Assembly: GCA_907163375.1 (NCBI GenBank)
Contig: CAJQUW010003408.1
Span: 182,430-246,429 of the forward strand
DNA length: 64,000 nucleotides
Direction of reading: 5' to 3'
Origin: Prostheceraeus crozeri
Taxonomy: Eukaryota > Platyhelminthes > Polycladida > Euryleptidae
In this document: in pieces, positions 28,941 through 62,952 of the stretch
Layout: each line of letters opens with the position of its first letter
How positions within the stretch are numbered: the first letter of the stretch is position 1
The notes under the pieces: model-generated
What the model saw: the letters and a program-made list of their open reading frames with translations, nothing else
What the model was told of the DNA's origin: nothing
The model's database searches: none
Position numbers and translations under genes: made by a program

Positions 28941-28987
28941 ATATATATATATTATTGCAAAGATAGGCATCCTGAGTAAAATGTTTT

Positions 28988-39786: not shown

Positions 39787-39842
39787 TGCTCAATTGCTGG
39801 TAAAATATACAACAAATATTGAAAGGGAAACACAGCAATTGG

Positions 39843-40245
39843 AATTATATATAATAAAATAATGAATGAAAACACTTCAAACTATTAATTCGCACGAGCG
39901 TTTTCTGGAATATATTTCCTTCTTCAGGTGCATAACAAATAGTGACATGTTGGAAAAATTTGAATTACAATGTACATGCATGCATAGAAAACTGACAACG
40001 AAGAAATATGTATTCAGAAGTATATCATTGAAATTCTGTAATCGTGGAATAAGAATCAATAGATATATAAAAAAGTAAAATGTAGATATACAATACAGCT
40101 TATGCACAATTGAGAGTAGGATGGAAAATATTTATAAAGTATTTTTCTTTGTTCTTACGTGTATTTATATCATCATCAAAAATTTTATAAAAAGGAAATA
40201 TATAAAAACGGGATTTACCACAAGATTCAATATGCTCACTTAGAT
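39843..40245 (-). mobile_element. Penelope-like copy C, severely 5'-truncated
   Basis: About 400 bp of the 3' end repeats the terminal part of copies A and B, including the last ~40 codons of ORF2 and the hammerhead-like terminus. It stops abruptly at 40245, where an inverted copy begins. It forms the left arm of a palindrome whose right arm is 41836-42240. Confidence 0.85.
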
Positions 40246-42240
40246 CACAAAATTGATCTCAAGTCCACTAGCTATAAAGTTGACTAAAAAGGAAAAGGAT
40301 TATTTGGTAAATTTTGAATACAAAACCAGCAATTTCTACGGATTGCCAAAAATTCACAAGTCTGCTATTATAAAAGCAGCTGTTAGCAAACAAAATTCAT
40401 CCTATGTGATCTGCCATAATCCAGATGACTCCAGATGACTTGAAATTCAGACCTATTGTCGGAGGTCCAAAATGTCCTACTCAAAGATTGAGCCATTTTT
40501 TGGATATCATTCTTAAGCCTTTTTGTAAAATGGTGGAAAGTTATGTGAAAGATGATTTTGATTTCCTTAATTATCTTCCTGAAAGCATTCCTTCAGAATC
40601 CAAATTTGTTACATTTGATGTCATAAGCCTCTATACTAACATTCCTCATAATCTTGGGTTGCAAGCCATTCAAAATTGGCTACAACGCTATCCAACATTA
40701 ATTGATAGACGTATTAATCAAGATTTCATAATCGAAAGTTTGAAACTGGTCTTAACTTGTAATACATTTTCATTCGCGAACAATAATTATAAACAGATAA
40801 AAGGTACTGCTATGGGACAAAGGTGGCTCCCAGCTATGCAACATTAACCCTAAGATATTTAGAAGTCAAATTGAAAGAAACCATGGTATTTACGTGGGGT
40901 GAAGAAATTACAAATTCCATAATCAAGAAATGGCGAAGATATCTTGATGACTGCTTCGTAATTTGGGATTATGATCTTGATCGGTTGGACACATTCAAAG
41001 ACTTATTGAATAATTTGGATCCAAATATTTCATTTACAATGGAAGTTAGTAATTGCGAAATTGCATTTTTGGATATTTTAATCATTCGAAAAGAAAACCG
41101 TGTTATTACTGATATGTATTATAAATCTGCGGACACTCATCAATACTTGCGTTTCGAATCTTGTCATCCCCGTCATATCAAGCGTGCTATTCCATATAAT
41201 TTGGCCAGACGAATCTGCACCATCGTAAATGATGATATTTTACGTGATAAACGCCTAAATGAATTAAGAATATTTCTTCAGAATCAAGGATATCCTTTTA
41301 ATTTGATTGAAGATGGTATAAAAAGATCTTTATCTGTGAGTCGTGCTTTTCTGCTAGAGCAACAAAACAAAAATAAGAATAATACCGATGAATTCAATAC
41401 TATTGCTTTTGTTCATGCTCATAATCCAAACAATGTAAATATTATTCCTATTGTTAATCATATAAATTCTTTACTTCTTGATGATCCTCAAACTAAAAGT
41501 ATTTTTGAACAAAAACAATTCATTGTAAGTAAACGTCAACCTAAAAATATTAAAGCAATAATCTGTAAATCTAAATTTGAGTCTAATGAACAATTCTGTG
41601 TAAGAAAGTGCAACAATTTGAGATGCGGAACCTGCGAATATATTATGACTGGTGATTCATTTGATTTTAAGGGAAAGATTTTAAAGTGAAAAATAACATG
41701 TCATGTGAAACAAGAAATGTAATTTATGTAATTAGTTGTTGTGGTTGTGGTGAATATTATATCGGCGAAACAGGAATTACGATCCGTGCTAGAGTGAGGG
41801 TACACAAGCAACAAATAAGTCATCCAATATACAGACAAATACATCTAAGTGAGCATATTGAATCTTGTGGTAAATCCCGTTTTTATATATTTCCTTTTTA
41901 TAAAATTTTTGATGATGATATAAATACACGTAAGAACAAAGAAAAATACTTTATAAATATTTTCCATCCTACTCTCAATTGTGCATAAGCTGTATTGTAT
42001 ATCTACATTTTACTTTTTTATATATCTATTGATTCTTATTCCACGATTACAGAATTTCAATGATATACTTCTGAATACATATTTCTTCGTTGTCAGTTTT
42101 CTATGCATGCATGTACATTGTAATTCAAATTTTTCCAACATGTCACTATTTGTTATGCACCTGAAGAAGGAAATATATTCCAGAAAACGCTCGTGCGAAT
42201 TAATAGTTTGAAGTGTTTTCATTCATTATTTTATTATATA
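40246..42240 (+). mobile_element. Penelope-like copy D, inverted and 5'-truncated
   Basis: This plus-strand copy starts inside the RT (at the LISSPLAIKLTKKEKDY region) and runs to the 3' terminus and (TA)n tract. Together with copies A-C it gives the classic Penelope arrangement of tandem copies with a terminal inverted partial copy. Coding lesions show that it is not a source of protein. Confidence 0.88.
40253..41988 (+). pseudogene. Penelope RT/GIY-YIG pseudogene (copy D)
   Basis: Three frames cover the RT and endonuclease. Lesions relative to copies A and B are a 10 bp duplication at about 40427-40445 (CCAGATGACT repeated), a one-base deletion in a G run near 40816 inside the GTAMG motif, and a one-base deletion in a T run near 41683. 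Two of the three are homopolymer slips, so sequencing error should be considered for those. The YLDD and GIY-YIG motifs themselves are unchanged. Confidence 0.85.
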
Positions 42241-42276
42241 TAATTCCAATTGCTGTGTTTCCCTTTCAATATTTGT

Positions 42277-42280
<4 letters not shown>

Positions 42281-42330
<50 letters not shown>
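42281..42330. repeat. (TA)n microsatellite at the end of the Penelope array
   Basis: About 25 TA units follow the terminus of inverted copy D, mirroring the tract at 31931-31994 on the other side of the array. Confidence 0.9.
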
Positions 42331-43004: not shown

Positions 43005-44620
43005 GGCCGCCATCGCTGACTCCCCCCCCTCTGGAACGGCAGAGTGTCGTGGTCGGCCGCCGTGGTGCTTCGTGTCTGAGTCCCCCCCCCCTCTGGAACG
43101 ATAGAGTGTCGTGGTGGACTTGGGCGACCGTCAGGATTAGTGTTGAGGCTATAGTGTGTGATGTTTTTGGTGCAATCTGCTGAATGTTGGGTTGTAAAAT
43201 GGGTTGTTTCGAGTGGAAGGAGTGGTTGGATGAGAAAACGGAGGTCGGATTCGTGTTCAGCGTGAATTCTGCATCGGTAGGGTGAGTTTCAAGTCAATCG
43301 GTGAGAAAAAATTTTTCTTCAAAATTTTAACAGAGTTAGAATTTGGGATGTTTTGGTGTGTAGCGCCCAAACGAAGCATCGGATGAGAAAACGGAGGCCA
43401 GATTCGGAATCTACGTGAAATTTTGGGTTAGGAAGGATGTTTCCAGCGAAATCGGAGAGAAAAAATTTTCGGCTGACGTCCCCCCCCCCTCTGGACAGCT
43501 TGCTTCGATTTTGGCTTCTAGTGGACGGATTTTGTCGTGCGATAGCTCGTTTGAAAGCTAAGAGTGAGACAAATTCAGTGAAAGAATCGGCTTGTTCCTA
43601 TCTGTCTTCGTTCAGAAGTTAGAGCGGTTACAAGATTTTAGGTCGGAGCTCGCTTACCTGAAAAAATCCTAAGTGTCAGAGTGACTTTGTATGGGTAAAA
43701 TTTTGAAAATTTTCCAAAGTGTGGAATTTCGACCTGGGACCGTCACCAAAACATTTTTCATCAAATTCTGAAATTTCGCTGACGTCCCCCCCCTCTGGAC
43801 AGCTTGCTTCGATTTTGGCTTCTAGTGGACGGATTTTGTCGTGCGATAGCTCGATTGAAAGCTAAGAGTGAGACAAATTCAGTGAAAGAATCGGCTTGTT
43901 CCTATCTGTCTTCGTTTAGATGTGAGACGCCATTTCAGATTTTAGGTCGGAGCTCGCTTACCTGAAAAAATCCTAAGTGTCAGAGTGACTTTGTATGGGT
44001 AAAATTTTGAAAATTTTCCAAAGTGTGGAATTTCGACCTGGGACCGTCACCAAAACATTTTTCATCAAATTCTGAAATTTCGCTGACGTCCCCCCCCTCT
44101 GGACAGCTTGCTTCGATTTTGGCTTATAGTGGACGGATTTTGTCGTGCGATAGCTCGTTTGAAAGCTAAGAGTGAGACAAATTCAGTGAAAGAATCGGCT
44201 TGTTCCTATCTGTCTTCGTTTAGATGTGAGACGCCATTTCAGATTTTGGGACATTGGCGAAAAACGACAGAGTTAGAATTTGGGACGTTTTGGGCTGTAG
44301 CTTCAAAACGAAGCATCGGATTGGAAAACGGATTTCAGATTTGGAATCAGCGTGAAATTCTCTATATGTATGGTGAGTTTCAAGTCAATCGGAGAGTTTC
44401 AAGTCAATCGGCGAGAAAAATGTTCAACATTTTTTCGGAAAAACGACAGAGTTAGAATTTTTGCGATGGCTGCCTACTGTAGAGCCAAAACGAAGCATCG
44501 GATGGGAAAACGGAGGCCAGATTCGGATTCAGCGTCAAATTCTACATGGAAATGGTGTATTTCCAGCTCAATCGGAGCACTAGAACCGGAGATAGACGGG
44601 TTTTTAGTGTTTGGATGATG
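43005..44620. repeat. C-tract tandem repeats left of the Polinton genes
   Basis: A ~305 bp unit containing GCTGACGTCCCCCCCCTCTGG, GATTTTGTCGTGCGATAGCTCG and a GAATCGGCTTGTTCCTATCTG block occurs at about 43475, 43781 and 44086. Two shorter relatives with CCCCCCCCTCTGGAACG lie at 43020 and 43083. Interleaved are 3-4 copies of an AAACGAAGCATCGGATGRGA block (43205, 43370, 44305 and 44480). No gene is apparent; a 61-115 codon frame recurs only because the repeat does. The position suggests the terminal or subterminal region of the Polinton to the right. Confidence 0.65.
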
Positions 44621-47694: not shown

Positions 47695-48033
47695 GCAAAT
47701 GAAGTTCGGTGTAATACTTCCTTTCGACGGGCGTTCCTGTAAAGGGCGGCGGTGAAACCCGTAGCTATGTATACCGCAAGGGACATTCGGCAATGGTCAA
47801 TCTTGTTAAACCTCTCTGCGTCATGTTTGCAAGTGATTGCCTCTGTCTCAACGTAGTATGCATTCGCGCCAGGGCGACATTTAGCCAACTGTCGAAGGTT
47901 GCCTAAAACTTTCCATTGCATACGTTATGAGAACCATGAGTTCTACCTGTCTCTATCAATGAGACGAATTGATGAATGGAATGAAAGGGAGGACACTCAC
48001 GCGCCACACGCAACATAACACACTTCTCTCTTC
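47695..48033. other. Spacer without recognised gene
   Basis: No promoter or domain was recognised. A minus-strand open frame (47508-47921) runs through here but includes the repeat cassette, so it is doubtful. Confidence 0.4.
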
Positions 48034-48440
48034 CGTAGTCTAACAAGCTCTTTACACATGGATCGCAGTCGATTGCTATCCCTGTATCAGAAGTGTAAGC
48101 TATCTTAATTTATTTGACACTATTTTATCTACCATCATCGTCCATATGAAATGTTTTTAGATTTACAAGTTAGACTAAGCGTGCTACTATTTCCAAATGA
48201 AAAAGTATACATGGTTAAATCATCCATTTAAGCCCATCCGTAGTCTAACAAGCTCTTTACACATGGATCGCAGTCGATTGCTATCCCTGTATCAGAAGTG
48301 TAAGCTATCTTAATTTATTTGACACTATTTCATCTACCATTATCACCCATATGAAATGTTATGAGATTTACAAGTTAAACTAAGCGTGCTACTATTTCCA
48401 AAGGAAAAAGTATACATGGTTAAATTATTCACTAAAACCC
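48034..48440. repeat. ~203 bp tandem duplication
   Basis: Two consecutive units (48034-48236 and 48237-48440) share CGTAGTCTAACAAGCTCTTT, an ATGGATCGCAGTCGATTGCT block and GCGTGCTACTATTTCCAAA. Each unit has a mini-frame Met-Asp-Arg-Ser-Arg-Leu-Leu-Ser-Leu-Tyr-Gln-Lys that runs into a GTGTAAG donor-like site. A shorter piece of the same block (CAGTCGATTGCTATCCCTG) also lies at 47166. It could be duplicated first exons or a regulatory repeat. Confidence 0.6.
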
Positions 48441-49153: not shown

Positions 49154-52100
49154 ATGGTAAGTTAAAGATTTCCTCTCTCATCTCCCTCAAACGTGTGACT
49201 AATAGCATCTTCCTCAATTTCAGGCATCAACTTCATCACCAACGCCCTCTCTTCTCGAGGAAAGTTTAGAGTTATTGAGTCAAGGTAGGTTGTAACACTA
49301 CACTGAGGCTTGAACAGAGATGATAGAATGATTTCTCTTTCAGGTGATGCGAGTTCCAGCTCAGAACTGTCGCGATATGGCAACGAGTGGGAATGTGCTG
49401 ACTGTGGGCACATCTTCACGAGGAAATGGGATCTCACCCGACACATCAAGCGAGGTGTTTGTCGACCTAAGTCGGCATCAATCTCCGAAGGTAGGGATGA
49501 TTCTGTTAACGATGTCTCCTTTTCTTGCGATTTATGCATTCAGTCTTTCGAGACACGTTTTGAACTATCTTCGCACAGACTTCAACATACACACACGAAC
49601 GATACCTACACCAACGGTACCTCCTCTATCCGACTTACTGAGGTGTCCATTAATAATTTAGTGAGGAACTACCAGATGGACTCCTCAGAAACCATTGCTA
49701 ACTTTGAGGAATGGTTTCATCAAAATTCATCATTGATAGAAGCGCTCTTCAACAATTTAGACAATTTTAGGATGAAGGCGCTCATCTATCTTAAAATAAA
49801 ATATGTAAAAATCGACCACCATACTGAACAAATAATAGAGAGGTTAGAGTTTCACATACCCTCCTCTCCTGCAACCGAGGTTGTAGACTATGAGTCTTGG
49901 ATAAATTTTCACATCCAAGGATTAAAATTAAATATTGATAAGTTTAACGAGCGCGATAGCGGTCTCATTTTTGACGGCATTGAGTCCGCCTTATTTAAAA
50001 TCAGTTTATTAGGAAATCATAGTGGTCGAGGCTCCTTTAAACTTCCAAAAAATTTAAAAAACAAAACAGCAGTCATCAATGTCGATTGCGAATCGCAATG
50101 TTTTAAATATGCTGTCCTCTCCATTCTCCACTATAATGACATCAATGCGAATCGAAATCGTACATATAGCTATAGGCAGTGGGAGAATGAATTAAACTTC
50201 GATGACTGTAATAGTGACGATATGAAAATGAAAGATATAGAAAAATTTGAAAAATTGAACAACATTAAAATAGTTCTCCATGTTTGGGAAAAGGGATTGA
50301 AGGGTGTGCGCTACAACTCGCGTTCGAGTTGTTATGACCATGTTGTCAACCTTTTATTAGTAAGACAGGATGATAGTGAGGAATGGCACTACTGCGGCAT
50401 TCCCAAAATTTCTCGCTTATACCACCACTTAAGAAATTCTACCTCATCATAGATTTATTACTGTGACAGATGCATTCGGAACTTTAGGAGTAAAAACAAA
50501 TTTGAAACTCATTATGAGTGGTGTAAGCGAGGTAAACTGCAAATGGAACGCATGCCCAAAGATAAGGAGTTTTCATATAGAGAGAATGGCGATGAACTAA
50601 GTCCTCTTCGTGTCATCTATGCTGACATCGAATGTTATATCGATGATAACATCCATCGACCAGCAGCCATTTCCTGCTATGAAGTATGGCATGATCACTT
50701 TAGGAGTAGGCAAAATAAAATGCGCGTCTGGCAAGGTGAGGATTGTATTTACCAATTCCTACAATTCCTCGAACAGGCTGTAAAATTTCAGCAAAAATAT
50801 GATGGTGAACTCTATCGCAGATCATTGCATATGACAGCAGATGATCAAGCAAAATTTGATAGTTGCAACGTTTGCCCCAAATGTAGGAAAACATTTGACG
50901 ATGATAAGATTAAGAAAGTGCGCGACCATGATCACATCACTGGTAAATTTAGAAACGCACTCTGTTCAAAATGTAATTTTTCGCTGAGGATGAAGCGGCG
51001 TACATTACCCGTCATTTTCCATAATTTCAAGGGCTACGACAGCCATATGATAATAAAAGGAGGTTTAGGTCAAATGAAAGAGTGGAAGCTTGATGTAATA
51101 GCACAAACGAGAGAGAAGTTTATGGCCATGACAGCAAAAGTGCCTGTCGATAAAACTAAAGAAAATAAGACGGTCTATTTTGATATAAAATTTTTAGATT
51201 CCTACCAATTTATGACTGCATCACTGGCCTCTCTCGTGCAAAATCTAAAGTCTCTTCCACTAACACAAAATCTTAAGAAACAATACCCAAATCTAACCGA
51301 TGAAGTCATCACACGGAAAGGAGTCTTTCCATATGCATATTTTGATGCAATTAGTAAACTCGGCGAGACTTCTCTTCCGCCCATAGATAAATTTAAAAAT
51401 GATTTGACCGGCGCAGAATGTAAGACCGAAGATTATGATCATGCACAAGATGCATGGATAAAATTTGACTGCCATACATTTGGTGAATATATGATTGCCT
51501 ACCTTAAGTTAGATGTATTTTTGCTGGCTGATGTATTTCAGGAGTTTCGACGAGTGGCATTAGAAGAAGATAAGTTAGATCCCGTCCACTTTGTCAGTCT
51601 GCCAGCCATGTCATTTAAGTCTGCTTTTAAAATGACTGGTGAGACCATTCATCTCTTACAAGATCCAGAGATGTATAATTTATTTGAGCGAGGAATTCGC
51701 GGTGGTCTCACATTTGTAAATAAACATAGGTTAAAATCAAAAATAGTAGGCAATGACCAGACTCATCTGAAGTATTATGACCAAAATAATTTGTATGGTA
51801 GTTCATTATCCAAACCGCTACCTCACTCTGAGTTTAGCTGGTTAGATGATAGTGATATTCAACATTTCTCCAACCCTTCTAACATACTAGCAATTCCAGA
51901 TGAAGGTGATTGGGGATATTATTTTGAGATAGATCTAATCTATCCAAATAATATTAAACATAAAACCGTAGATTTTCCACTCGCACCCGAATCAGGTGAA
52001 GTGAGTAAAGATATGTTTTCCGACTTTATGAAACAATTTCATAAAGATTTAGAATCATGTGGACAACCCGACTATAAGCCTTGTCGCAAACTTTTACTCA

Positions 52101-53128
52101 CCCAGTATGATAAAGAAAACTATCTAGTCCACTTTAGCATCTTAAAATTTTATTTAGAAATGGGCATGATTTTAAAAAGAGTTCACCGCATTATTAAATT
52201 TAGACAGAAAGCCTTCCTCAAGCCATATATTGATAGCAACAGCCAGAAACGTGCACTAGCCCAAAATAACTTTGAAAAAGATTTTTATAAATATAAGAAC
52301 AACAGTCTATTTGGTAAGACGATGGAGGATGTTAGAAAGCGCGTAAACTACAAACTAGTTAATGATGATCAAAAGTATCACAAATTGGTCTCATCACCTC
52401 TATTCATCGATAGAGACATTATCGATGAGGACCTTATAGGTGTTAAAATGATAAAATCTGAAGTTGAGTTGTGCAAGCCCATCTATATTGGTCAAGCTGT
52501 TCTAGATTACTCCAAGCTTGAAATGTATCAACTCTTCTATAAAATACTAAAACCCTGTCCTCTCGTAAAAGAGGTTCGTTTGTTGGGTGGTGATACAGAT
52601 AGTTTCTTCTTAGGTATTACCACTCAAAAAGATTTAAATTTTAATGAAGTAGGAAAATCTTTAGAAAGATATTTTGATACATCAAATTATCCTGCTAATC
52701 ATCCACTCTACTCCATCAAAAATAAGGCAAAACTTGGCTGCTTTAAGGATGAGACAGCAGGGAAGGAGATAGCTGAAATGATTCTCCTCCGTCCAAAAAT
52801 GTACAGTATGAAATTAAAGGATAGCGACGATAGCATTAAGCGCGCTAAAGGGATATCAAAATCCATTGTGCAAAATATGAAACATAAGAATTTCAGGAAA
52901 GCCTATAGAAATAAAAATATAACGTTTGTCAATATGACAATCTTAAAATCTAAGTCGCATGAGATCAAAACTCATACTTTTAGGAAACGGGCGCTTTCAG
53001 CATGGGAGGATAAGAGGTGCTGGTTAGAACACAACATATCTCTTCCACATGGACATCCTGACACAAACATACCACCACCCAAAAGAATTAAACTCACACT
53101 ACCACATTCAGGAGACATCTTAGCATAA
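49154..53128 (+). CDS. Protein-primed type B DNA polymerase, spliced, with one in-frame TAG
   Basis: Exon 1 holds only the ATG (49154-49156), intron 1 is 49157-49223, exon 2 is 49224-49284, intron 2 is 49285-49343 and exon 3 runs to 53128. All junctions are GT...AG and the frame is kept. The N-terminus has a C2H2 finger (CADCGHIFTRKWDLTRHIKR) and a second CDLCIQSF finger. A TAG at 50450-50452 interrupts the frame, which continues in phase with another finger (YCDRCIRNF) and the polymerase. Motifs are ExoI YADIECY, an HNH-like CPKC...VRDHDHITG...CSKC knot, YLKLDVFLLADVF, LYGSSL (A), KNNSLFGKTMEDV (B) and GGDTDSFF (C). It would copy the element using a terminal protein. Confidence 0.88.
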
Positions 53129-53433: not shown

Positions 53434-54900
53434 TCACTTTGTTTTCCGAAACACTAACGTTATGAGGGATTTAGTATCTTTCACATGGATGCACTCTTGT
53501 AAACCATTGGTAATTTTGATAGCAATAGAGGGTATAGTTTGTTTGACGACGGGATGATAGAAAATAGATTCAAACATCTTCTCGACTATTCCATATGAAG
53601 CGTCTTTATCATGAATGAAATCACGTAAAATGTATTCTTTTTTCTCACCAACAGAAATAGGTAGAATCAAATCACTTTGAATGTAAAGGTTCTGTTCATG
53701 TTTATCAAGTGTCATTGGTGTTTCTATACCAATCGTATGCGCAGCAGCAAACACTGTTTGTAGCATTGAAAAACCAAAGAGTTTTTTCAAATTTTTACTC
53801 AATTGACATTGAATGTCATCGCCCAGTTTCAGAACAACGCGTTGATTTTCAATTGAAAACGAAATGTGGTGTGTCTTTACATCATATTTACTTTTCATCA
53901 CATGCTTCAACTTCTGTTGTATATAAGGATTTACTACATGAATGAAGCTTTCAACTGTATGATATAGACGCGGCATTATATTGATAGCAACTTTAGATTC
54001 TTCATAAGACTGGTAAATTTTCTTGATGCGATCGCCATAGATGTCCACCCACCATTCATCATTAACTGAATCAGCTTTAGTGTGATATTCATGAGAAGCA
54101 TACACCACACCGCTTCCAATAATAGGTGTATAATGTCTTACAAAATGACGCAAGGTTGGAGAGAAATAAACTGTAAGTTTGTCATTATATTTCTGAATAA
54201 CCAACTTATTTTTGTCCGCCATAATTTTTTCTCCATACTTCTTACCCACAGTCTCATTCCATCGTTTTACTAACTCAATAAGTGATAAAGGTTGAATACC
54301 ACGCTTTTTCAAAATGATGCGTTCTTCGCATTCTACAACATCTTCATCAAATATTTTAAATCTATAATGAAATTTGTTGATTCGATTTGAATAAACTTTT
54401 CTAACATTTGCAGTAGCAATTGACGTTAGATGTAGTCCATGACCAAAACCAAGATGCGGATAGAATTCACTATCCAACCTCAGCGTAAGACCTTTAGTAA
54501 AAGAATGAAAGCGGAGGAACTGTCTCCCACTCCAATGATAGATAGTAAACTCATAAGCTTTCTGATTTTTATTCTTCATGATGGAAGTATTACCACTGTT
54601 GAATGCCTTAATAATTTTCTCATTCCCAAATGGCTCATAAGAATCTGATTTTATCTGAATCCATTCATAGTTCCATTTTCCATCTGATGTTAAATTGTAT
54701 GGGAACTGGAATGCATTATTCATCGTTATTCCATCATGGGTGCGAGGAGTCAATATCATTTCTTCCAAATCATTCACATTCTGAATATTGCTATCATAGC
54801 AAATACTAGAAACGCCAACCTCCCATTCACCTTCTAAATGCAGTGGGCGATTTAATTCTACTCGATAGTCTGATGGTTTATTTTTGGGAAATTTATTCAT
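53434..54900 (-). CDS. Polinton structural-type protein with LxGxWEVGV motif (paralog 1)
   Basis: The first ATG is at 54900, giving 488 residues; the frame upstream begins at a TTG. The N-terminus RVELNRPLHLEGEWEVGVSS matches a widespread Polinton protein family of about 450-500 residues with unknown role, always near capsid genes. A paralog follows on the same strand at 54994-56391 with the same layout and a matching SKNLKKLFGF/MDKTLMDILGF block late in the protein. It may be a minor capsid or fibre-like component; this is inferred from context. No membrane span. Confidence 0.65.
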   Translation of the reverse strand: MNKFPKNKPSDYRVELNRPLHLEGEWEVGVSSICYDSNIQNVNDLEEMILTPRTHDGITMNNAFQFPYNLTSDGKWNYEWIQIKSDSYEPFGNEKIIKAFNSGNTSIMKNKNQKAYEFTIYHWSGRQFLRFHSFTKGLTLRLDSEFYPHLGFGHGLHLTSIATANVRKVYSNRINKFHYRFKIFDEDVVECEERIILKKRGIQPLSLIELVKRWNETVGKKYGEKIMADKNKLVIQKYNDKLTVYFSPTLRHFVRHYTPIIGSGVVYASHEYHTKADSVNDEWWVDIYGDRIKKIYQSYEESKVAINIMPRLYHTVESFIHVVNPYIQQKLKHVMKSKYDVKTHHISFSIENQRVVLKLGDDIQCQLSKNLKKLFGFSMLQTVFAAAHTIGIETPMTLDKHEQNLYIQSDLILPISVGEKKEYILRDFIHDKDASYGIVEKMFESIFYHPVVKQTIPSIAIKITNGLQECIHVKDTKSLITLVFRKTK

Positions 54901-54993
54901 AGAAGCATTACTGGGCAACTAGATTAGAAACGAGTCCTTATTTTCACTTTCCATATTATTCACATTGGAAAAATATAATAGCATACTTTTGCA

Positions 54994-56391
54994 TTAACTC
55001 TTCATTCGGAAATGGAGTGTAATACTTGTCACAGCATCTTTATGAAAAGGAATCAACGCACCAGCATCATCATAAATGGCAATATCAATTTGTGGGATGT
55101 AGTTTGATTTCAGCTTTGTATAATGCACTTTCTTGAAAGTATGCTCAGATAAAATACTGCAGCTTTTTGGCTGGTATGGTATCATTGCTAGCAATGGAGC
55201 TTCAACATCTCCCACACGTACATCTTCACCAATATTGGAATATATCTGAAAATAGTTAATACGACGCGATAGCGACATGTCTGCGCTAGCTTTGGTTACA
55301 GTACCACTTTTAAAGATATTTTGATCAAAACCCAAAATGTCCATTAGAGTTTTATCCATAATTAGTTCAATACCTTTTCCACTTATAGTGAGAGACAAAG
55401 TACCTTCTTTTTCAGAAAATGAAATATGTTGCTCATTAATCACTTCATTTAAATAATCTACAACCAATTTAACCGAAGTAATAATGCGAGGCATCAACAC
55501 TCTTGTTTCATGTAAGAAACCACCTAAAGGCTCTACACACTTTCTGTATAAAGATACGGTCCATTCTGTATCAAATTGATTTGACCTTTCACATGGTAAA
55601 TGTTGCATATCAGATTTTCCATGAACAGCTGCAGAACGATGTCGTAAGAACTGATGAAAATCTTTTGAACAAACTAATACTAGATCATCATCATTTAATT
55701 TGCTTATTGCAATATGATTAGATGATTTGATATAAGTCAATGTTGCCACTTGTTTTCCATCAACTCGAAGGAGATAATTAAATTTCTTCAATAATGTTTC
55801 AGGAGTCATGTTTGTCTTTCTTGGCTTAATCACAATCTTCTTCACCAACGTCTTCTCATTTCTTGGAATAAGATCTACATAATAAGCTTCCTCTCGATAT
55901 ATTAACTGTTTATGACCACTTATGTGGTAATTAACGTTAAAATTATCATAGCTTGTTAAGGCGCTAGCGAGGTAGCCTAAATCATTTCTTAAACTTGGAC
56001 TTAAACCAACAATCCAATCTTTCTCAACTACATGATGTACATAATTATAATCATCATTGTGCGGAGTAAATTGGACAATATGTTTACACGCTTTATTCAA
56101 GAAATCATATATAAACTTTTTACATGATAAGAGATCTTTCTTTGGCCACTGTGGAATGTATACTCGGCAGCCCTTTTCACATTGGTAAGCAGCTGTACGC
56201 CTCATATTAATAGTCATCACCTCATGATCAAAAGTATAGACACAGTTGCTATAAACAAGTTGAGTGACACCCACTTCCCAATTTCCATTTAGCTGTTGTG
56301 CATGATCAATGGGAGTAGAAAAGAGTGCGGCTCGATTACTAGTAAATCTCTTTGTAGCCGCATTGCTAAGCAAAATATGATAAAACGACAT
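54994..56391 (-). CDS. Polinton structural-type protein with LxGxWEVGV motif (paralog 2)
   Basis: The first ATG is at 56391 (465 residues); the longer frame starts at a TTG. The N-terminus HILLSNAATKRF, then HAQQLNGNWEVGVTQLVY, corresponds to that of paralog 1. Both have a mid-protein LRKFNYLL/LVKRWNE helix, a FHQFLRH/LRHFVRH block and a late DILGFDQ/LFGFSM block, so the pair arose by tandem duplication. The start codon is only 35 bp from that of the divergent PC4-like gene, so the two promoters must overlap coding DNA. Confidence 0.65.
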   Translation of the reverse strand: MSFYHILLSNAATKRFTSNRAALFSTPIDHAQQLNGNWEVGVTQLVYSNCVYTFDHEVMTINMRRTAAYQCEKGCRVYIPQWPKKDLLSCKKFIYDFLNKACKHIVQFTPHNDDYNYVHHVVEKDWIVGLSPSLRNDLGYLASALTSYDNFNVNYHISGHKQLIYREEAYYVDLIPRNEKTLVKKIVIKPRKTNMTPETLLKKFNYLLRVDGKQVATLTYIKSSNHIAISKLNDDDLVLVCSKDFHQFLRHRSAAVHGKSDMQHLPCERSNQFDTEWTVSLYRKCVEPLGGFLHETRVLMPRIITSVKLVVDYLNEVINEQHISFSEKEGTLSLTISGKGIELIMDKTLMDILGFDQNIFKSGTVTKASADMSLSRRINYFQIYSNIGEDVRVGDVEAPLLAMIPYQPKSCSILSEHTFKKVHYTKLKSNYIPQIDIAIYDDAGALIPFHKDAVTSITLHFRMKS

Positions 56392-56426
56392 TTTTATATT
56401 GCTGATCTGCAACTTTGCATAACATC

Positions 56427-56783
56427 ATGAAGACTTGGATTTTGGACTCTCTACAATATATCAGAGTTGATCGTGATGGAAACGTACATTTCAAAAATTC
56501 TCATGGTCATACATCAAGAGGAATTACATTAACATGGCGACAATTTGTCAACCTCAATGATATCATGAGGGATTTGGAATATTTTGAAACATTAAGATTC
56601 ATCTCCTTGGGTGATCAAGTTTGGCTTCAACATTACAGAAATGAAATTCAAATCTACCATTCTCATTCCGCAAACTGTTTCTCATTTCGCAAATACAATT
56701 GGGAGAAGTATAGAAGATATATACATCGCTCCATCATGACATTTATTCGTCGTGAGTTCATCGCCCTACTATGCAAATCTTAA
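56427..56783 (+). CDS. PC4-like small protein (paralog 1)
   Basis: A 118-residue ORF starts at ATG 56427 (the longer frame begins at TTG). YIRVDRDGNVHFKN followed by SRGITLTWRQFVNLNDIMRD resembles the beta-strand run and KGISLxxEQWxxL helix of PC4/p15 transcriptional coactivators. A second, weaker cycle is VWLQHYRNEIQIYHS then FRKYNWEKYRRYIHR. It therefore may hold two PC4-like half-domains and bind single-stranded or melted promoter DNA. A paralog follows after 22 bp, and then the TBP-like gene. The PC4 relationship is my inference from pattern, not a verified match. Confidence 0.5.
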   Translation: MKTWILDSLQYIRVDRDGNVHFKNSHGHTSRGITLTWRQFVNLNDIMRDLEYFETLRFISLGDQVWLQHYRNEIQIYHSHSANCFSFRKYNWEKYRRYIHRSIMTFIRREFIALLCKS

Positions 56784-56805: not shown

Positions 56806-57456
56806 ATGAGTTGGAAATTAGATTCCCTACAACGTATTGAAACGGATCATGATCGAAACGTCTATTTCAAAGATTCAACTGGAAATGTGAGAAGAGAGTT
56901 TGCTTTATCTTATCGTCATTTTCAATCTCTACATCATATCATGAAGGACTTGAAATACTTCTATATGAAAAGACATTCACGTATTGGAAATCGCATCTGG
57001 CTGCGCGTCAACAATCGGCGAATTCAACTCTATCATTCCCAACTTCATACTAACTTCACATTTCATCAAGGTAGTTGGGAAAAGTATAAAAGGAAGGTAC
57101 ATCGCTCAATTTACTCATTCTTTCATCATGAAGCGCCATCGCTACACCATCGTCAACATTCTCCGTCGCTTCAGACTCTACACCAAAATCGATCTCACAA
57201 CATTACACCAACACCTTCCAAACAGCAAGTATTACCCGGGCCGTCCTCAAATGTTAGTGGTGAAGATGAACAATTCACGGAATCTTCAACTCTTCCCAAA
57301 TGGGACTGTACAGATTCTCGGCGCCCTTTCTCATTCATCGGCGCAGTCAATGCGCTTAGAGCTACAAAGACTACTACGTCGGATATGGAAGAGGGAGAGG
57401 TGTGTGATGTCGAATCTGACTGTGGACAATATGGTGATCTCTACTCAATTGAGTGA
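56806..57456 (+). CDS. PC4-like small protein (paralog 2) with overlapping C-terminal extension
   Basis: Residues 1-112 align along their length with paralog 1 (MSWKLDSLQRIETDHDRNVY, REFALSYRHFQSLHHIMKD, IWLRVNNRRIQLYHS, GSWEKYKRKVHRSI). Paralog 1 ends there, but this frame stays open for another 104 residues, overlapping the TBP-like gene in a different frame. The extension is Ser/Thr/Pro-rich with an acidic end (MEEGEVCDVESD). It is either a true overprinted tail or a lack of stop codons over a conserved gene. It lies in the same cassette as paralog 1 and the TBP-like gene. Confidence 0.5.
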   Translation: MSWKLDSLQRIETDHDRNVYFKDSTGNVRREFALSYRHFQSLHHIMKDLKYFYMKRHSRIGNRIWLRVNNRRIQLYHSQLHTNFTFHQGSWEKYKRKVHRSIYSFFHHEAPSLHHRQHSPSLQTLHQNRSHNITPTPSKQQVLPGPSSNVSGEDEQFTESSTLPKWDCTDSRRPFSFIGAVNALRATKTTTSDMEEGEVCDVESDCGQYGDLYSIE

Positions 57457-57673
57457 CAGTGTATCATTTTTGAAGATTCGTACCAGCAGTTACAATTTGT
57501 GTTATGAACCCGAACTTTTTCCTGCAGCTCTCATTAGTTGTTGGTTACCTGTACATGTGGCAATCTTTCATAATAGTAAAGTGATCATTACTGGACTAAA
57601 ATCTCATGTACAAGCAAATATGATCCTAGACTATCTCATTGAGTATGTACGTACCCAGCGGATTGTAAAATAA
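57128..57673 (+). CDS. TATA-binding protein-like factor
   Basis: From ATG 57128 the product is 181 residues, the size of a TBP core. Repeat 1 (about residues 1-85) has YTIVNILRR, YYPGRPQMLVVKM, LQLFPNGTVQILGA and a following SAQSMRLEL helix. These match TBP's VN, YNPKRFxAVIMRI, LIFSSGKMVCTGAKS and helix 2. Repeat 2 has CYEPELFPAALI and VAIFHNSKVIITGLKS, matching SYEPELFPGLIYRM and LLIFVSGKVVLTGAK. Three of the four DNA-kinking Phe positions are Phe; the first in repeat 1 is not. It should recognise a TATA-like element. Its frame overlaps the tail of the PC4-like gene. It sits inside a Polinton. Confidence 0.82.
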   Translation: MKRHRYTIVNILRRFRLYTKIDLTTLHQHLPNSKYYPGRPQMLVVKMNNSRNLQLFPNGTVQILGALSHSSAQSMRLELQRLLRRIWKRERCVMSNLTVDNMVISTQLSDSVSFLKIRTSSYNLCYEPELFPAALISCWLPVHVAIFHNSKVIITGLKSHVQANMILDYLIEYVRTQRIVK

Positions 57674-57700: not shown

Positions 57701-58162
57701 TTATTTCAAATCATGATAGAACTTACAAATCATTTTTTCATTAGAGGATGGATTACATGAAAAGTTTTGAATAACAGATGCAAATCGAGATACATGTAAA
57801 CGTCTTAAGATGAAGTACAGTACAAAAGCACCACACGTTGATGAAAGTGGATGTTGTAGTATGCGTTCATTTCGCTGATATTGACGCGTATGTTTTCTCA
57901 ACCACTGCTGTGTTGGTATATTTGGAGGTTGAGCAAGAGAGTCAAATAGTTCACCACGTCGGTCTTCTCCAATAAAGATCGCTTTCCAATGCTCACCGCC
58001 TAAATTCTGTGAATGAGTGTTTAGCACAATAAAGATGGGATAGTGATTTACTGCAGGTGGTAAGGTATCGAGTGAATAGACATTATCGAAAGCTTTCAAC
58101 GTCGCTTCGTCTGCATTACGCTGCACTTTAGTCTTAATATCGTCAGCAGTCAACCAACTCAT
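57701..58162 (-). CDS. Adenain-type maturation cysteine protease
   Basis: This 153-residue protein has a family C5-like triad. The catalytic His is in GGEHWKAIFI, an acidic residue in GELFDSL, the Gln/oxyanion region is near QHPLSS, and the nucleophile Cys is in STCGAFVLYF. Length is short but complete for Polinton proteases. It matures capsid proteins in the virion. Its ATG overlaps the stop of the upstream capsid gene (TAATG), so both are likely on one transcript or translated by reinitiation. An AATAAA for this unit lies just downstream near 57705. Confidence 0.85.
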   Translation of the reverse strand: MSWLTADDIKTKVQRNADEATLKAFDNVYSLDTLPPAVNHYPIFIVLNTHSQNLGGEHWKAIFIGEDRRGELFDSLAQPPNIPTQQWLRKHTRQYQRNERILQHPLSSTCGAFVLYFILRRLHVSRFASVIQNFSCNPSSNEKMICKFYHDLK

Positions 58163-59439
58163 TAACGATTATACTGAAGAATCACGTCACGATACTTTGT
58201 AATTTCAATGTTTGAATCGAAGACTGCATAAATTAATACATTGATCGTCTCAGGTAGTGTTCTTTTGAACGTCAAATCCAAACGAATATTATGAGGCACG
58301 TTCGCTTGACGATAGGGTGCACTAATATCGCTGTCAGCAGTCAAATCAAATGCATAAATAGTATATCCACTCTTAAACTCTTTCATAGTCAGTCCGTTGG
58401 TGTCATCCGTATTGTAAAAGCCAAAAACATCCATAAAATCAACATAACTGCGCATAAATTGATCCGAAGCAAAATCTGGTTTGTAGGGTGGACCAGGATG
58501 ACTCACACCATTTACACGTAAAGCAATTTCACTTAACTGATTGTGTTTAAAATTGAAAGGATTCTTCTTTATATTACCATTAAATGCATCATTTTCAACC
58601 ATTGCCACCATGAGGAGCTTCGGTGCTTCCGATGGAAAGAGGCCATCTTTCATGAAACTCTTTTGATCTTTCGGAATTGTAAAGGTGAGAAGCTTTGTAT
58701 GCTGAACGGGGTAAATGGCATTTTGGCGGTTAAGGCCTTCAGCATGCCCTCTAATGACACTTGGATTCGGTACTACTCGACGAATGTAAAGTGTAATATC
58801 TTCCACATGAATTCTAAAATTGTCAACTTTAGCAAATGCATTCAGCGCAAATTCAGGCTTATTCAATGTCAGCTTGAGTCGCATGCTGGTATTACAGAGT
58901 AAAAACTTTGACTGTCTAAAGAAGTCTAAATTCAGCGGACCATATAGCTGACATACTCTACTATCTTTAATCATAGCAGATCGCTTTACAAAGCCACTGT
59001 TTGTTTCAACATCAAATTTTCCTGCTTCATCTCTGTACCATCCCATGGCTTCCATATGACTTTTTTGTGCTGCTGGATGAAACTGTGATACATGATTGAA
59101 ATATGATTTATAGGGATAATCGCTTTGACCACCTTCCACCTGCTGCTCTCCAATCGTTAGAGAAACATCACGAAGTAATGTAGTCAATGGTAAATTGTTC
59201 AGTCCAACTTTATGTGCATCATCAATAGCAGTTCCATCTGCTTGCTGAATTCTAAACCTCAAATCAAGCATCGCATAACTCAAATCTATGTAGTCATCAC
59301 TACCACCAGGAATAACAAATTCAATGGGGCCAGCATTCTCAGCTGTTCGAGGATGATAATCTACAATACTTGAACTAAGAATATCTGTCTGTATGGCTTG
59401 TTGATCGAACAAACAAAAACCGGAAGTTTTACACTCCAT
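58162..59439 (-). CDS. Probable major capsid protein (F54H12.2-type)
   Basis: The 425-residue product matches the Polinton capsid family that appears in animal genomes as F54H12.2-like protein. Motifs are DDYIDLSYAMLDLRFRI, LLRDVSLTIGEQQV, YPYKSYFNHVS, LYGPLNLDFFRQSKFLL, NDAFNGNIKKNPFNFKH, KSGYTIYAFDLTAD and FDSNIEITKYRDVI. Two beta-rich halves are consistent with a double jelly roll; I infer this rather than see it. It would form the icosahedral shell. It lies between the basic core protein gene (2 bp gap) and the protease (1 bp overlap). No lesions. Confidence 0.8.
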   Translation of the reverse strand: MECKTSGFCLFDQQAIQTDILSSSIVDYHPRTAENAGPIEFVIPGGSDDYIDLSYAMLDLRFRIQQADGTAIDDAHKVGLNNLPLTTLLRDVSLTIGEQQVEGGQSDYPYKSYFNHVSQFHPAAQKSHMEAMGWYRDEAGKFDVETNSGFVKRSAMIKDSRVCQLYGPLNLDFFRQSKFLLCNTSMRLKLTLNKPEFALNAFAKVDNFRIHVEDITLYIRRVVPNPSVIRGHAEGLNRQNAIYPVQHTKLLTFTIPKDQKSFMKDGLFPSEAPKLLMVAMVENDAFNGNIKKNPFNFKHNQLSEIALRVNGVSHPGPPYKPDFASDQFMRSYVDFMDVFGFYNTDDTNGLTMKEFKSGYTIYAFDLTADSDISAPYRQANVPHNIRLDLTFKRTLPETINVLIYAVFDSNIEITKYRDVILQYNR

Positions 59440-59441
59440 GA

Positions 59442-59897
59442 TTAGAAGTTATAGCAGCGTCGTCGTTTAGCGCCTGATGAATGATTAGAGCCTCTGCGAC
59501 GTTTGCGTGAATGCCTTTTGACTGAAGATCGCACCTTACCAGCTCCGCGATGTTTCCTCCTTCCTTTATTCATTCGTTTAGGTGATTTCTTTCCTTGAGT
59601 AACGCCAGCAATGGTCTGCTTCAATGTTTTTAAACCGCGTTCCTTCCCACGATTCAACAAACTGCTCTTAAAACTTCTACCTCTGGAAAGATCACTAGCA
59701 ACATCACCAGCAAAGCCAACGGCATTACTTAAAACATTTCGTTTCAAAGATCTACCGACATTGGATATGAGAGGTGCTACAACAGATTTCAGTGCACCAA
59801 GTATGCTACCTCCACGTTGGCGGCGAGCACCGATGTAAATTTGTCCTCCGCCACTTACATAGGAGGGTCGTGAATAAAATGAGGCAGTTGGATTCAT
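59442..59897 (-). CDS. Basic virion core-type protein
   Basis: The 151-residue product is very rich in Arg, Lys, Ser and Gly. It has an N-terminal amphipathic, glycine-containing helix (GGSILGALKSVVAPLIS) and a C-terminal basic tail with RKHRGAGK, KRHSRKRRRG and GAKRRR patches. The design recalls adenovirus core or pVI-like proteins that condense DNA and disrupt membranes; this function is inferred. It lies directly upstream of the capsid gene on the same strand with a 2 bp gap. Confidence 0.65.
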   Translation of the reverse strand: MNPTASFYSRPSYVSGGGQIYIGARRQRGGSILGALKSVVAPLISNVGRSLKRNVLSNAVGFAGDVASDLSRGRSFKSSLLNRGKERGLKTLKQTIAGVTQGKKSPKRMNKGRRKHRGAGKVRSSVKRHSRKRRRGSNHSSGAKRRRCYNF

Positions 59898-59938
59898 AGC
59901 TCAAACCCTAAACATTGTTAGTTACAATTTTGCATGAA

Positions 59939-61159
59939 TCACTGTCGATCACTTAGATGAAAGATGTCGGCACGACGCATCCAAGAGTTCATACTTGAAG
60001 GATAACCAGCCCATTTAACAAGACACCATTCTTCACCTTGCCGTTTTTTACATCGAATGATTTTCTCTACCAAATATGTTTCACTTTCAGTGACTACCTC
60101 AATCTCATCGCGGTAAAAGCTACCCTCAATTTCTTCATTATCGTAATCTTTCAACTTGTAGGTGGTCGGAGAGTCTTTTTGATTAATCCTTGATACTGTA
60201 AATACCTCCTCTGTCCAATTCGGGAGGTACCCTTTAGCAAAAACACTTTTCACTTTTGAGATACGAACTTTATCGCCAATTTTCACATCACTTTTCACAT
60301 GAGTGCGTTTACGTTGGAATGATTCGCGCACTTTATCTACATTGTCAGCATTTACATCTACTGGTCTGACTCCAATAGAACGATGGATAGAGTGATTGTA
60401 AGCATGGAGTGTATCTTGTAGAACCTTTGTCCAATTTTGTGTCAAGTTGGCAGTAAAATGTCGCCACAAGCGATTTTTTAATGTGCGATTAAAACGTTCA
60501 ACGAGTGCAGCTTTATAAGCGCTCTTTACACTAAACAACTCAATGTCATGCCTCTCAAATAATCTTGTCACATGCTGATTTTCAAACTCTTTTCCTTGAT
60601 CACTCTGAATTCTTTTTGGAATGCGACCTTCTCGAAAAATTGTTTGGAATGCTTTTGCTACTCCTTTCCCTTCTTTAGTTTTTAAAGGTTGAGCCCACGC
60701 ATAACGCGAGAAAATATCAATGACGGTTAAAATAAAATTATTGCCCGAGTTATGTTTTGAAATGGAGGCAACATCACACAAATCTGCTTGCCACTGTTCA
60801 TCGATGTCATGAACAATATAATGGCGGGTGCGGTACTTCTTTTTCGCTTGTTTGTGGAGTGTATAGGTAGCCTGACCCTTTAACCATCGTTTCACTTGTG
60901 ATTGTGGAAGACCACTCGCTTTTGATAATTTCTTGATAGATGCAAATCCTGCCGGATGTTTTACATCATAATAGATTGACTTCAAACGTTCAGTCGATGA
61001 CGACTGACTCTTTTTCCTCCTTCTCATCTTTTTGTTTTCTTGCCTTTCTACATTTACAACAACTGCAGCATTTAGCTTTAGCGGTTTTGCGATCGTGTTC
61101 ACATTGCTTAGGGGTTTCATTATGAGAGCTGGCGCAGCAAGTGCAAGTGACAACGACAT
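59939..61159 (-). CDS. Polinton integrase with C-terminal chromodomain
   Basis: Up to 406 residues; the start may be ATG 61159, 61120 or 61027, since the first ~44 residues overlap a Cys-rich ORF in another frame. An HTH-like IKKLSKASGLPQSQVKRWL is followed by the rve core: WQADLCDV (Asp), IQSDQGKEF (Asp) and LVERFNRTLK (Glu). A KIGDKVRISK SH3-like region then precedes a chromodomain (YLVEKIIRCKK, EWCLVKWAGYPSS, NSWMRRADI). The chromodomain may steer integration to methylated histone tails. It inserts the element with a short duplication. All catalytic residues are present. Confidence 0.92.
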   Translation of the reverse strand: MSLSLALAAPALIMKPLSNVNTIAKPLKLNAAVVVNVERQENKKMRRRKKSQSSSTERLKSIYYDVKHPAGFASIKKLSKASGLPQSQVKRWLKGQATYTLHKQAKKKYRTRHYIVHDIDEQWQADLCDVASISKHNSGNNFILTVIDIFSRYAWAQPLKTKEGKGVAKAFQTIFREGRIPKRIQSDQGKEFENQHVTRLFERHDIELFSVKSAYKAALVERFNRTLKNRLWRHFTANLTQNWTKVLQDTLHAYNHSIHRSIGVRPVDVNADNVDKVRESFQRKRTHVKSDVKIGDKVRISKVKSVFAKGYLPNWTEEVFTVSRINQKDSPTTYKLKDYDNEEIEGSFYRDEIEVVTESETYLVEKIIRCKKRQGEEWCLVKWAGYPSSMNSWMRRADIFHLSDRQ

Positions 61160-61206: not shown

Positions 61207-61899
61207 TTAATAGTCTGAGAACATGTATTTCCTAGGAGGAGCTGTTTTACGTTTTCCTTTTACCAGTTTTAGTGGCGATGTAGATCTACGTCGAGTTCTT
61301 CCTCTTGTTTGCTTAGTGAGTGTGGGAGGGGATGTAGCAGGTGACGTCTTAAACCAATTTGTTGGCATTTTCATCGTCTGAAGCATTGGAGTAGTAGCCA
61401 CTGTTGAATCAAGTTCTTTCAATGTCTCATTATTTAAAGCAAATTTTGGCACATTATGCTTTTTCAATAGTTTAAGAAAGTATGACCAACCAGGTGGAAC
61501 ATATCCCTGACGGCGCTTTCTACGTGTCGCATACTGAATCAAGTCTTCATAACGTGAAGCATCAATCACTTTATTTTCATCTGTAATGATTTCTCCTCTA
61601 TCATTTACATTGAGATGGGGCTCAATACTATTGAAAAGAGATATGGCATGTGCGCGAGATGCTAAAGGTGTAGCAGTCGATACAGAGTCACGCATCTTAT
61701 TCTTCAAGTTTTTCAATTGCTCAACAGTTTCCGATTGTAATAATACAGCACGATGTGGATCTTTGATGTGAACATTTTGCTGATAATCTATTTCTTTCCT
61801 ATACATTTGATTTGCAAGAGGTTGCTTTACTTGCTGCATGGCAGTCAATTGTACATATTCATCCTGAGGAATAACAATCATGCGAGAATAAGAACTCAT
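61207..61899 (-). CDS. Conserved Polinton protein of unknown function
   Basis: The 230-residue product begins SRMIVIPQDEYVQLTAMQ, a hallmark (RMxLIPxxxYxxL) of a protein found in many animal Polintons next to the packaging ATPase. It has a helical middle, a KVIDASRYEDLIQYATRRKR block and a basic Ser/Thr/Pro-rich tail. Its ATG overlaps the ATPase stop codon (ATGA). It is possibly a scaffold or virion assembly factor; that is inferred only from position. Confidence 0.65.
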   Translation of the reverse strand: MSSYSRMIVIPQDEYVQLTAMQQVKQPLANQMYRKEIDYQQNVHIKDPHRAVLLQSETVEQLKNLKNKMRDSVSTATPLASRAHAISLFNSIEPHLNVNDRGEIITDENKVIDASRYEDLIQYATRRKRRQGYVPPGWSYFLKLLKKHNVPKFALNNETLKELDSTVATTPMLQTMKMPTNWFKTSPATSPPTLTKQTRGRTRRRSTSPLKLVKGKRKTAPPRKYMFSDY

Positions 61900-62513
61900 A
61901 GTTTGTAGATAATCATGGGAGTTTTCAAAATATCACTTCGAAATCTAAATTCTTCCGGACACTCTTGCGTAAAGTCAATGAATAAGTAACCGTATGGTTT
62001 TTCAGTAGCTGCTTGAAAAATTTCAATTAAGGCTTTTGATCCTCTGGGTGCAACTTGTCGCGCTAAAATTTCAAATTGACTTTTATCTCGCGGATTCTTG
62101 AAAATAGCATAATAGTGTGTATTCAGGTTTCGTGTACGAGCTTCTTTTCCATCAGGAAATAAATTTTGTGTAATATAGATGATAAAACACCTTTTATGGT
62201 GTGCTGCGCGAGTGAACATATCTGTAACATCTTTTGAATTCTTACTTTCTTTTAATAAATCATCCAATACAACAACATCATTAGACTGAAGTTTATCCAC
62301 TGGAATAATTCCTTCATGTCGAATAAAGTTGCGACTTTGCAATTCCTGAAACAGCGACGGTTGATAAATACCATAACAACAAATCACTCGATTGATAGGT
62401 TCCTTAAACAACTCCCTTCTTTTATCCAATAAATTCAGCGTGAAAACAGTTTTACCTGCATGAGATGGACCTGATACAGTCAGAACTTTATCACATTGAA
62501 GTCTGAAATCCAT
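61896..62513 (-). CDS. Genome-packaging ATPase (FtsK/HerA, A32-like)
   Basis: The first ATG is at 62513 (205 residues); the longer frame starts at TTG. Walker A is GPSHAGKT, Walker B is VVVLDDLL, and a HHKRCFIIYITQNLF sensor segment follows, as in Polinton and adintovirus packaging ATPases. Length is normal. It drives DNA into the procapsid. It shares a four-base stop/start overlap with the next gene. The copy in the first element (4396-5143) is distinct in sequence and broken. Confidence 0.9.
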   Translation of the reverse strand: MDFRLQCDKVLTVSGPSHAGKTVFTLNLLDKRRELFKEPINRVICCYGIYQPSLFQELQSRNFIRHEGIIPVDKLQSNDVVVLDDLLKESKNSKDVTDMFTRAAHHKRCFIIYITQNLFPDGKEARTRNLNTHYYAIFKNPRDKSQFEILARQVAPRGSKALIEIFQAATEKPYGYLFIDFTQECPEEFRFRSDILKTPMIIYKL

Positions 62514-62544
62514 TTTATTACTTTGAGACTCAACATTTGCATAA

Positions 62545-62901
62545 TTAACGCTTAGAGCCAAAGATATTTCCCAATAGGTTGCCCACGGCAGGAGCTATCA
62601 TTGGAAGTATTGCTGAAAGGAAACCGCCCTTTTGTGTTAGAGTTTTCCTCTTTCTTTGAAGGGCGACTTTAGGATTGGAGATGAAACGCAATTTCGTAGC
62701 ATATCGCTTAAGTAACTTTCGTTGTTTTGGCGCTAATTTCTTCGTCCTCAACTTCCTCACATGAGAAATAATTTCACAAATGAATTTATCGTTAGCATGT
62801 CGTATAGCATTGTATCGCTGATTTGCTTTCATTCGTCGGAGAGCTTGAATGGCTGAAGAAAACTTTTGACTTTTACGTTTCGTCATTTTACGTTTCGCCA
62901 T
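62545..62901 (-). CDS. Conserved small basic Polinton protein (QKGGFL type)
   Basis: The 118-residue protein has a basic start (MAKRKMTKRKS), helices with RRMKANQRYNAIRHANDKF and APKQRKLLKRYATKLRFIS, and the C-terminal signature KRKTLTQKGGFLSAILPMIA followed by a glycine-rich hydrophobic end. This is a common small protein of animal Polintons, probably a minor virion component. The C-terminal amphipathic segment could act on membranes. It is positioned just upstream of the packaging ATPase on the same strand. Confidence 0.7.
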   Translation of the reverse strand: MAKRKMTKRKSQKFSSAIQALRRMKANQRYNAIRHANDKFICEIISHVRKLRTKKLAPKQRKLLKRYATKLRFISNPKVALQRKRKTLTQKGGFLSAILPMIAPAVGNLLGNIFGSKR

Positions 62902-62952
62902 TTTCCGTGTTAGTCTTTGCTAAAACCTATCTTTACCACATTTGCATAGGTA

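Follow-up and report, generated by a model that had tools for sequence, protein, structure and literature searches.

The window, that is, the whole stretch of 64,000 nucleotides that was analysed, carries at 57128..57673 (+ strand) an open reading frame (ORF) that encodes a true TATA-binding protein (TBP) and belongs to a Polinton/Maverick element. The identity of this gene and its location in Polintons are settled. As judged from sequence and structure prediction, its product most likely acts as a viral promoter-recognition factor. This reading is supported by the two-repeat fold of the protein, its presence in three lineages and in relatives from elsewhere, the retention of TFIIB contacts, the substitutions of its DNA-contacting face, the TATA box of its gene and the overlap of this gene with another one. 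Many DNA viruses of eukaryotes are commonly traced to the vicinity of Polintons, whose gene expression has been little studied.

The product (181 aa, followed by a stop codon) matches the PF00352 profile in two stretches, with an E-value of 1.1e-20 and 73.7 bits for a cut-off of 22.9 (Pfam). A PDB sequence search retrieved 35 distinct sequences at E<=1 (best E=2.5e-13), which are TBPs or TBP-containing constructs, 4wzs_D bearing a locus name only. The preliminary description had recognized the length and two-repeat layout of a TBP, signature blocks in both repeats and three of the four intercalating Phe. All these features are confirmed: repeat 1 contains YYPGR and FPNGTVQILGA, repeat 2 contains YEPELFP and VAIFHNSKVIITG, and F56, F131 and F147 are found at the Phe positions, the fourth one being occupied by P40. 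It had left the fold and the profile match to later analysis; the predicted structure is the TBP saddle and the match to PF00352 is strong.

The genes surrounding the TBP gene form a set that we take to be that of a Polinton/Maverick. On the left are found a polymerase-like gene in two pieces (49328..53128, +, with an in-frame stop at 50450-50452), two ORFs called WEVGV gene 1 (53434..54900, -) and WEVGV gene 2 (54994..56391, -), gene a (56427..56783, +, 118 aa) and gene b (56806..57456, +, 216 aa). The right part, entirely on the - strand, comprises genes encoding an Ulp1/adenain-like protease, separated by 27 nt from the TBP gene (57701..58162), a presumed major capsid protein (58162..59439), a small basic protein (ORF, 59442..59897) and an integrase with a chromodomain (59939..61159), a 230-aa ORF with no assigned function (61207..61899), the gene of a packaging-type ATPase (61896..62513) and a small basic ORF, here named pX (62545..62901). 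Apart from the TBP, only the integrase (rve, 1.3e-10), its chromodomain (Chromo, 1.3e-6) and an endonuclease VII-like zinc site of the polymerase-like gene exceed the curated Pfam cut-offs. The protease matches C48 (PF02902, E=0.001, 19.4 bits for a cut-off of 20.7) and C5 (E=0.048) below their cut-offs, and the ATPase has a weak A32-like match (Pox_A32, E=0.026), also under the cut-off. The polymerase-like gene, which has no polymerase match in Pfam or PDB, is presumed to encode a polymerase from its motifs and is 35% identical to its counterpart in another Polinton-like fragment. The capsid protein is presumed from its size, its position and its own large family (484 matches), and has no match in Pfam or PDB. 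Because of the in-frame stop in the polymerase gene, the window copy is probably inactive. No terminal inverted repeats were found in the window, at the end of which the contig stops. Contig L001, assigned to an Ignavibacteria MAG, is a eukaryotic Polinton-like fragment carrying capsid, protease, ATPase and polymerase genes, this assignment being likely a binning error; similarly, a relative of the capsid protein (P0064) is placed in a Pseudomonadota MAG.

Other repeats and mobile elements are found in the window. A unit of 3.9 kb, containing ORFs of 419 and 810 aa, is present twice in tandem, along with direct and inverted partial copies (32096-42283). Its 810-aa ORF carries a GIY-YIG domain and Pfam reported no reverse transcriptase domain in the unit. 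Left of the element lie tandem repeats spaced by 304 nt (43482-44236) and by 205 nt (48032-48440), and three long fold-back inverted repeats, whose arms of 186 to 512 nt are 98-99% complementary, are located at 27407-30414. Other mobile elements are an integrase-core fragment (13054-13875), a THAP-domain ORF (23532-24494) and a DDE_1 transposase-like ORF (25515-26489).

A TBP profile search of the 2.05 Gb assembly gave 10982 candidates, of which the best 150 were all above the cut-off. Since these 150 are a selection, the real number of TBP matches is higher than 150. The top-scoring ones among the matches listed, on C9306 and C3829 (L002-L004), have no Polinton genes found next to them and are probably host TBP or TBP-related exons. 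The existence of such exons would fit a TBP gene of the window that is a host gene or a stray single-copy insertion instead of a component of the element. This is extremely improbable, since Polinton genes lie beside the TBP gene in all of the 20 other loci that were sampled (10-kb stretches, chosen without stop inside the match and with varied frame length), since the TBP gene is interlocked with gene b and since its product is only 20-27% identical to cellular TBPs. Hence, the preliminary description was right in assigning the gene to a Polinton/Maverick, as indicated both by the genes around it and by the 20 copies, and in expecting it in related elements. The site that it gave, with the WEVGV genes on one side and the protease on the other, holds for 14 of the 20 copies and fails for six, in which the TBP gene adjoins the polymerase gene.

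Eleven of the 20 copies have the gene order of the window, including genes a and b; ten of their TBPs are 93-97% identical to that of the window and the last one (L025) 80%. A second lineage (L010-L012) encodes TBPs 42-43% identical to the window TBP and shows the same order (WEVGV1, WEVGV2, TBP, protease, capsid, basic gene, integrase), with the 230-aa gene in all three copies, the ATPase gene in two and pX in one; genes a and b were not found there by tblastn. In the six copies where the TBP gene adjoins the polymerase gene, the latter is degraded and the TBP shows 38-54% identity over its best segment. Three of these six (L016, L017, L022), which belong to a third lineage, showed only the polymerase gene, the TBP gene and, in two loci, a gene a/b-like ORF (E 3e-4 and 8e-4) over the flanks read. 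The TBP frame extends uninterrupted over 173 to 188 codons in 13 of the 20 copies; it is shorter in six and devoid of start codon in one.

Furthermore, a search of 5.8 billion proteins yielded 84 candidates, among which 61 are TBP relatives at E<=0.001. All of them match PF00352; their identity ranges from 34 to 82% and their contigs reach 24.7 kb. These relatives share words with the query, so that selection accounts in part for the conservation of their blocks. The protein collection contains gene a of the window and a 99% copy of gene b but not the window TBP. Gene callers thus seem to report either b or TBP and not both, and TBPs of the Polinton kind are therefore probably under-counted.

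The tail of gene b lies within the TBP gene over 329 nt (57128-57456, stop included), in a different frame, and we take this overlap as real dual coding from the comparison of sequences. Three further proteins of the collection (222, 222 and 217 aa) bear the tail of gene b and have the same end point. Under a constraint on the TBP protein alone, one would expect a tail identity of 0.32 and a probability of 1.8e-5 for the absence of a stop, whereas 85, 70 and 66 of 108 residues are identical to those of P0183. The tail is better conserved than the rest of the protein in the most distant of them (66/108 versus 49/108) and slightly less conserved in P0186 (70 versus 76 identical). Moreover, the letters of these tails are compatible with the window TBP at 100, 94 and 86 of 108 places, versus 38 at most in other registers. 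Among the 19 genome copies evaluated, 11 have a b frame that reads through 305 to 341 nt of the TBP gene; this frame extends further in four (three of them via a frame change) and is cut short in four. Intact b frames are present in all three lineages, the chance of each being 2e-5 to 2e-4. Tail identity exceeds expectation between L011 and L016 (35 observed versus 16.7 expected of 101) and between L025 and L016 (27 versus 13.2 of 99), and is not above it between the window and L011 (18 versus 15.7 of 99). If this reading is true, the TBP gene is a clear instance of a general transcription factor encoded by an overlapping gene.

The DNA-contacting face and the TFIIB side of the protein were compared by counting residue conservation in a 62-row alignment of the TBP family. 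V203, I194 and the residue equivalences were assigned from our own alignment and from the general literature on TBP; the contact positions bear what we take to be their yeast TBP numbers, most of which agree with Table 1 of PMC12529657. Yeast F116, F190 and F207 correspond to F56, F131 and F147 of the window TBP, and Phe is retained there in 62, 61 and 62 of the 62 rows, respectively. Yeast F99 corresponds to P40, and this column contains Pro in 58 of the 59 rows that have a residue, so that the family has three of the four intercalating Phe of TBPs. This loss of F99 is a lineage-specific change; membership in the TBP fold family stands and standard TATA specificity is not claimed. N69 is retained in all 50 rows with a residue, and N159 and V161 are invariant. 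V122Q, V203H and I194L are each present in all 62 rows, L114Q in 58 and T124L in 56, and L205 is replaced by A, T or S in every row. Since V203H and L205A/T/S change the C-terminal repeat as well, the binding preference is not predictable. E186 and E188, which we take to be TFIIB contacts of TBP, are retained in 61 and 62 of the 62 rows, and a loss of TFIIB-contact Glu of the herpesvirus type is absent from the Polinton TBP family.

Retained TFIIB contacts combined with altered DNA contacts could also point to a competitor, which would occupy host TFIIB or TATA boxes and lower host transcription, and the persistence of the TBP in the third lineage without nearby capsid genes goes in the same direction. 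We consider such a role quite improbable, because the DNA face is conserved and not just decayed, V122Q, V203H, N159 and V161 being invariant in the alignment. As a promoter-recognition factor, the viral TBP would bend promoter DNA as TBP does, would prefer DNA other than the standard TATA box and would recruit RNA polymerase II of the host together with its TFIIB or a TFIIB-like factor.

The flanks of the three third-lineage TBPs (L030-L035) were read up to about 14 kb on each side, in separate pieces, and no capsid or integrase gene, nor any structural gene, was found within this distance. These three TBPs are therefore without structural targets in cis, and the third lineage is possibly a reduced, high-copy derivative. 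The TBP gene and the gene b-like ORF adjoin the polymerase gene there, without capsid gene in the stretches read, which would suit an aid to replication or packaging, for instance by bending the ends of the element, with no promoter role. Genes a and b might also suit it. Structure prediction gives gene a a tandem PUR/whirly-type fold, for which the Foldseek match is not significant, and the N-terminal domain of gene b, paralogous to gene a, would have a PUR-alpha-like fold by homology. Both show about 10% identity to PUR repeats I-II of Pur-alpha, and none of their Pfam matches goes below E=0.04. Folds of the PUR/whirly type are binders of single-stranded DNA. A role confined to replication or packaging nevertheless has a low probability, given the retained TFIIB-contact residues and a promoter-like motif located upstream of structure-type genes.

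Promoters were sought in the 150 bp preceding 15 ORF starts of the element. The TATATAAG promoters suggested by the preliminary description were not recovered: the four TATATAAG sites after position 42000 (44652, 47237, 49040 and 53920) include none at promoter positions, and none within the 150 bp scanned. The site at 49040, which is 288 bp upstream of the first ATG of the polymerase ORF, could be a distal polymerase promoter. TATAWAW is found in the 15 regions only as TATAAAA, at -43 of the TBP gene and at -7 of a WEVGV gene. The former corresponds to a candidate TATA box, TATAAAAG (57085..57092, +), located 43 nt upstream of the TBP start codon within gene b. TATAWAW is present 40-48 nt upstream of the TBP start in the 19 copies with a located start, from all three lineages. 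In addition, TATAAA is permitted by the letters at the matching position in nine of the 12 relatives whose N-terminal extension reaches far enough (rows gapped at the anchor being dropped). Since the box also encodes Tyr-Lys of gene b, its conservation can be explained by protein constraint.

A second motif, ATGCAAA, was picked post hoc, after inspection. It precedes six of the 15 ORFs: WEVGV1 (-94; 54988..54994, -), WEVGV2 (-29), gene b (-35), the basic-protein gene (-38; 59929..59935, -), the ATPase gene (-29) and pX (-46). Where present, TATGCAAA begins one base before ATGCAAA: it stands 30 nt before WEVGV2, antisense just before gene a (56414..56421, -), 36 nt before gene b, within the last bases of gene a (56770..56777, +), 30 nt before the ATPase gene (62536..62543, -) and 47 nt before pX (62941..62948, -). 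Six of the eight ATGCAAA and all four TATGCAAA occurrences of the 14.7-kb element region lie upstream of ORFs. When the maximum over all 7-mers was considered, the observed sharing was reached in 0/500 dinucleotide shuffles and 1/500 random-window sets (8-mers: 1/500 and 31/500; 6-mers: 36/500 and 107/500). ATGCAAA is not enriched across the whole window (18 versus 23.8 expected) and, in sense, is missing upstream of nine of the 15 ORFs, including those of the capsid, protease, integrase, polymerase and 230-aa proteins.

In window-lineage copies with located starts, ATGCAAA is retained before gene b (10/10), the basic-protein gene (10/10), the ATPase gene (9/10), WEVGV2 (8/10), pX (8/10) and WEVGV1 (8/9). 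The ten close copies of this lineage are not independent; only L025 (80% TBP identity) and the second lineage are independent. It is never found before the protease, integrase and 230-aa genes and precedes the capsid gene in one copy. L025 has it before WEVGV2, gene b and the ATPase gene, the other copies being nearly identical. The gene b site is lost in three relatives of gene a (P0187, P0189, P0191) and retained in P0190. No ATGCAAA was found upstream of second-lineage genes. The 10 kb of L011 contain TAAGCAA three times, each 34-38 nt before an ORF (WEVGV1, WEVGV2 and an ORF at the pX location), and TAAGC 35 nt upstream of the basic gene. Thus, TAWGCAA precedes orthologous genes at core-promoter distance in both lineages, which differ in its third letter.

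The motif might instead be a host site, through which POU factors would drive these genes while the viral TBP acts otherwise or at any promoter. Three of the four TATGCAAA sites (gene b, ATPase, pX) extend to a full or near octamer ATGCAAAT, which is presumably the one bound by animal POU factors. This explanation is unlikely, since the orthologous genes of the second lineage are preceded, at an equal distance, by TAAGCAA instead of the octamer, and since motif and start codon are spaced as in a core promoter. The fixed substitutions of the DNA face and the upstream motifs that differ between lineages indirectly support promoter recognition by the viral TBP, which would favor the promoters of its own element.

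Such a factor could work as follows. Early, host TBP would express the viral TBP from an ordinary TATA box. The viral TBP would next open the structure-type genes bearing TATGCAAA (window lineage) or TAAGCAA (second lineage), these motifs, at about 30-47 nt upstream of the start codon, being its targets. It would act via host TFIIB and RNA polymerase II, and genes a and b may provide single-strand DNA-binding cofactors. A Polinton early-to-late switch is conceivable, with a remodelled TBP, a TAWGCAA motif co-changing by lineage and PUR-like cofactors, one of them overlapping; this would be a minimal counterpart of the late preinitiation complex of herpesviruses, with the same contact positions altered independently. 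We propose it tentatively, as somewhat less probable than not: it gains mainly from the change of the motif between lineages and is held down by the capsid gene devoid of motif and by the third lineage devoid of capsid. As a TBP of their own is multiplied in one genome and retained in three lineages, the promoters, start sites and early/late order of Polintons become testable.

TBPs are already known in viruses, namely giant viruses, mirusviruses and herpesviruses. No description of a Polinton TBP was found in the open-licence papers searched, and it is likely new to the literature. It differs from cellular TBPs (PF00352) of eukaryotes and archaea by its carriage on a mobile element in many copies and by F99P, L114Q, V122Q, T124L, V203H, I194L and L205A/T/S, which are fixed or nearly so. 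TBP-fold models of giant viruses are among the BFVD matches (the best of those bearing a name being that of Heterosigma akashiwo virus, E=5e-10), with identities of 21% at most, so that no close sequence relation is apparent. In mirusviruses, a TBP is present in 59% of genomes according to PMC10132985. In giant viruses and mirusviruses, unlike in Polintons, the TBP sits in large genomes with their own transcription genes.

The beta- and gammaherpesvirus mimic offers the other comparison. Table 1 of PMC12529657 lists most of the analysed DNA-contact positions for TBP and ORF24 of KSHV, the latter having S at L114 and L205 and N at V122, T124 and V161. According to the abstract of this paper, late-gene activation by ORF24 requires conserved Phe and a polar interface, and according to its section 16, ORF24 is devoid of the TFIIB-contact residues, printed as E184 and E188. 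The Polinton TBP resembles ORF24 as a virus-encoded TBP domain, polar at L114 and V122 and altered at T124 and L205, and its element has a candidate late-type promoter motif other than TATAAA. It differs from ORF24 in being a stand-alone protein of 181 aa (752 aa for ORF24), with no known six-protein complex, in retaining the TFIIB-contact residues that are missing in ORF24 and in having lost F99, which ORF24 retains. By analogy, the Polinton TBP perhaps works like a TBP mimic of the herpesvirus type, without being a member of this group. The positions substituted in the 62 rows thus overlap with those altered in ORF24 and, if our reading is true, Polintons would provide, besides herpesviruses, a second independent instance of a viral TBP with changes at the same DNA contacts.
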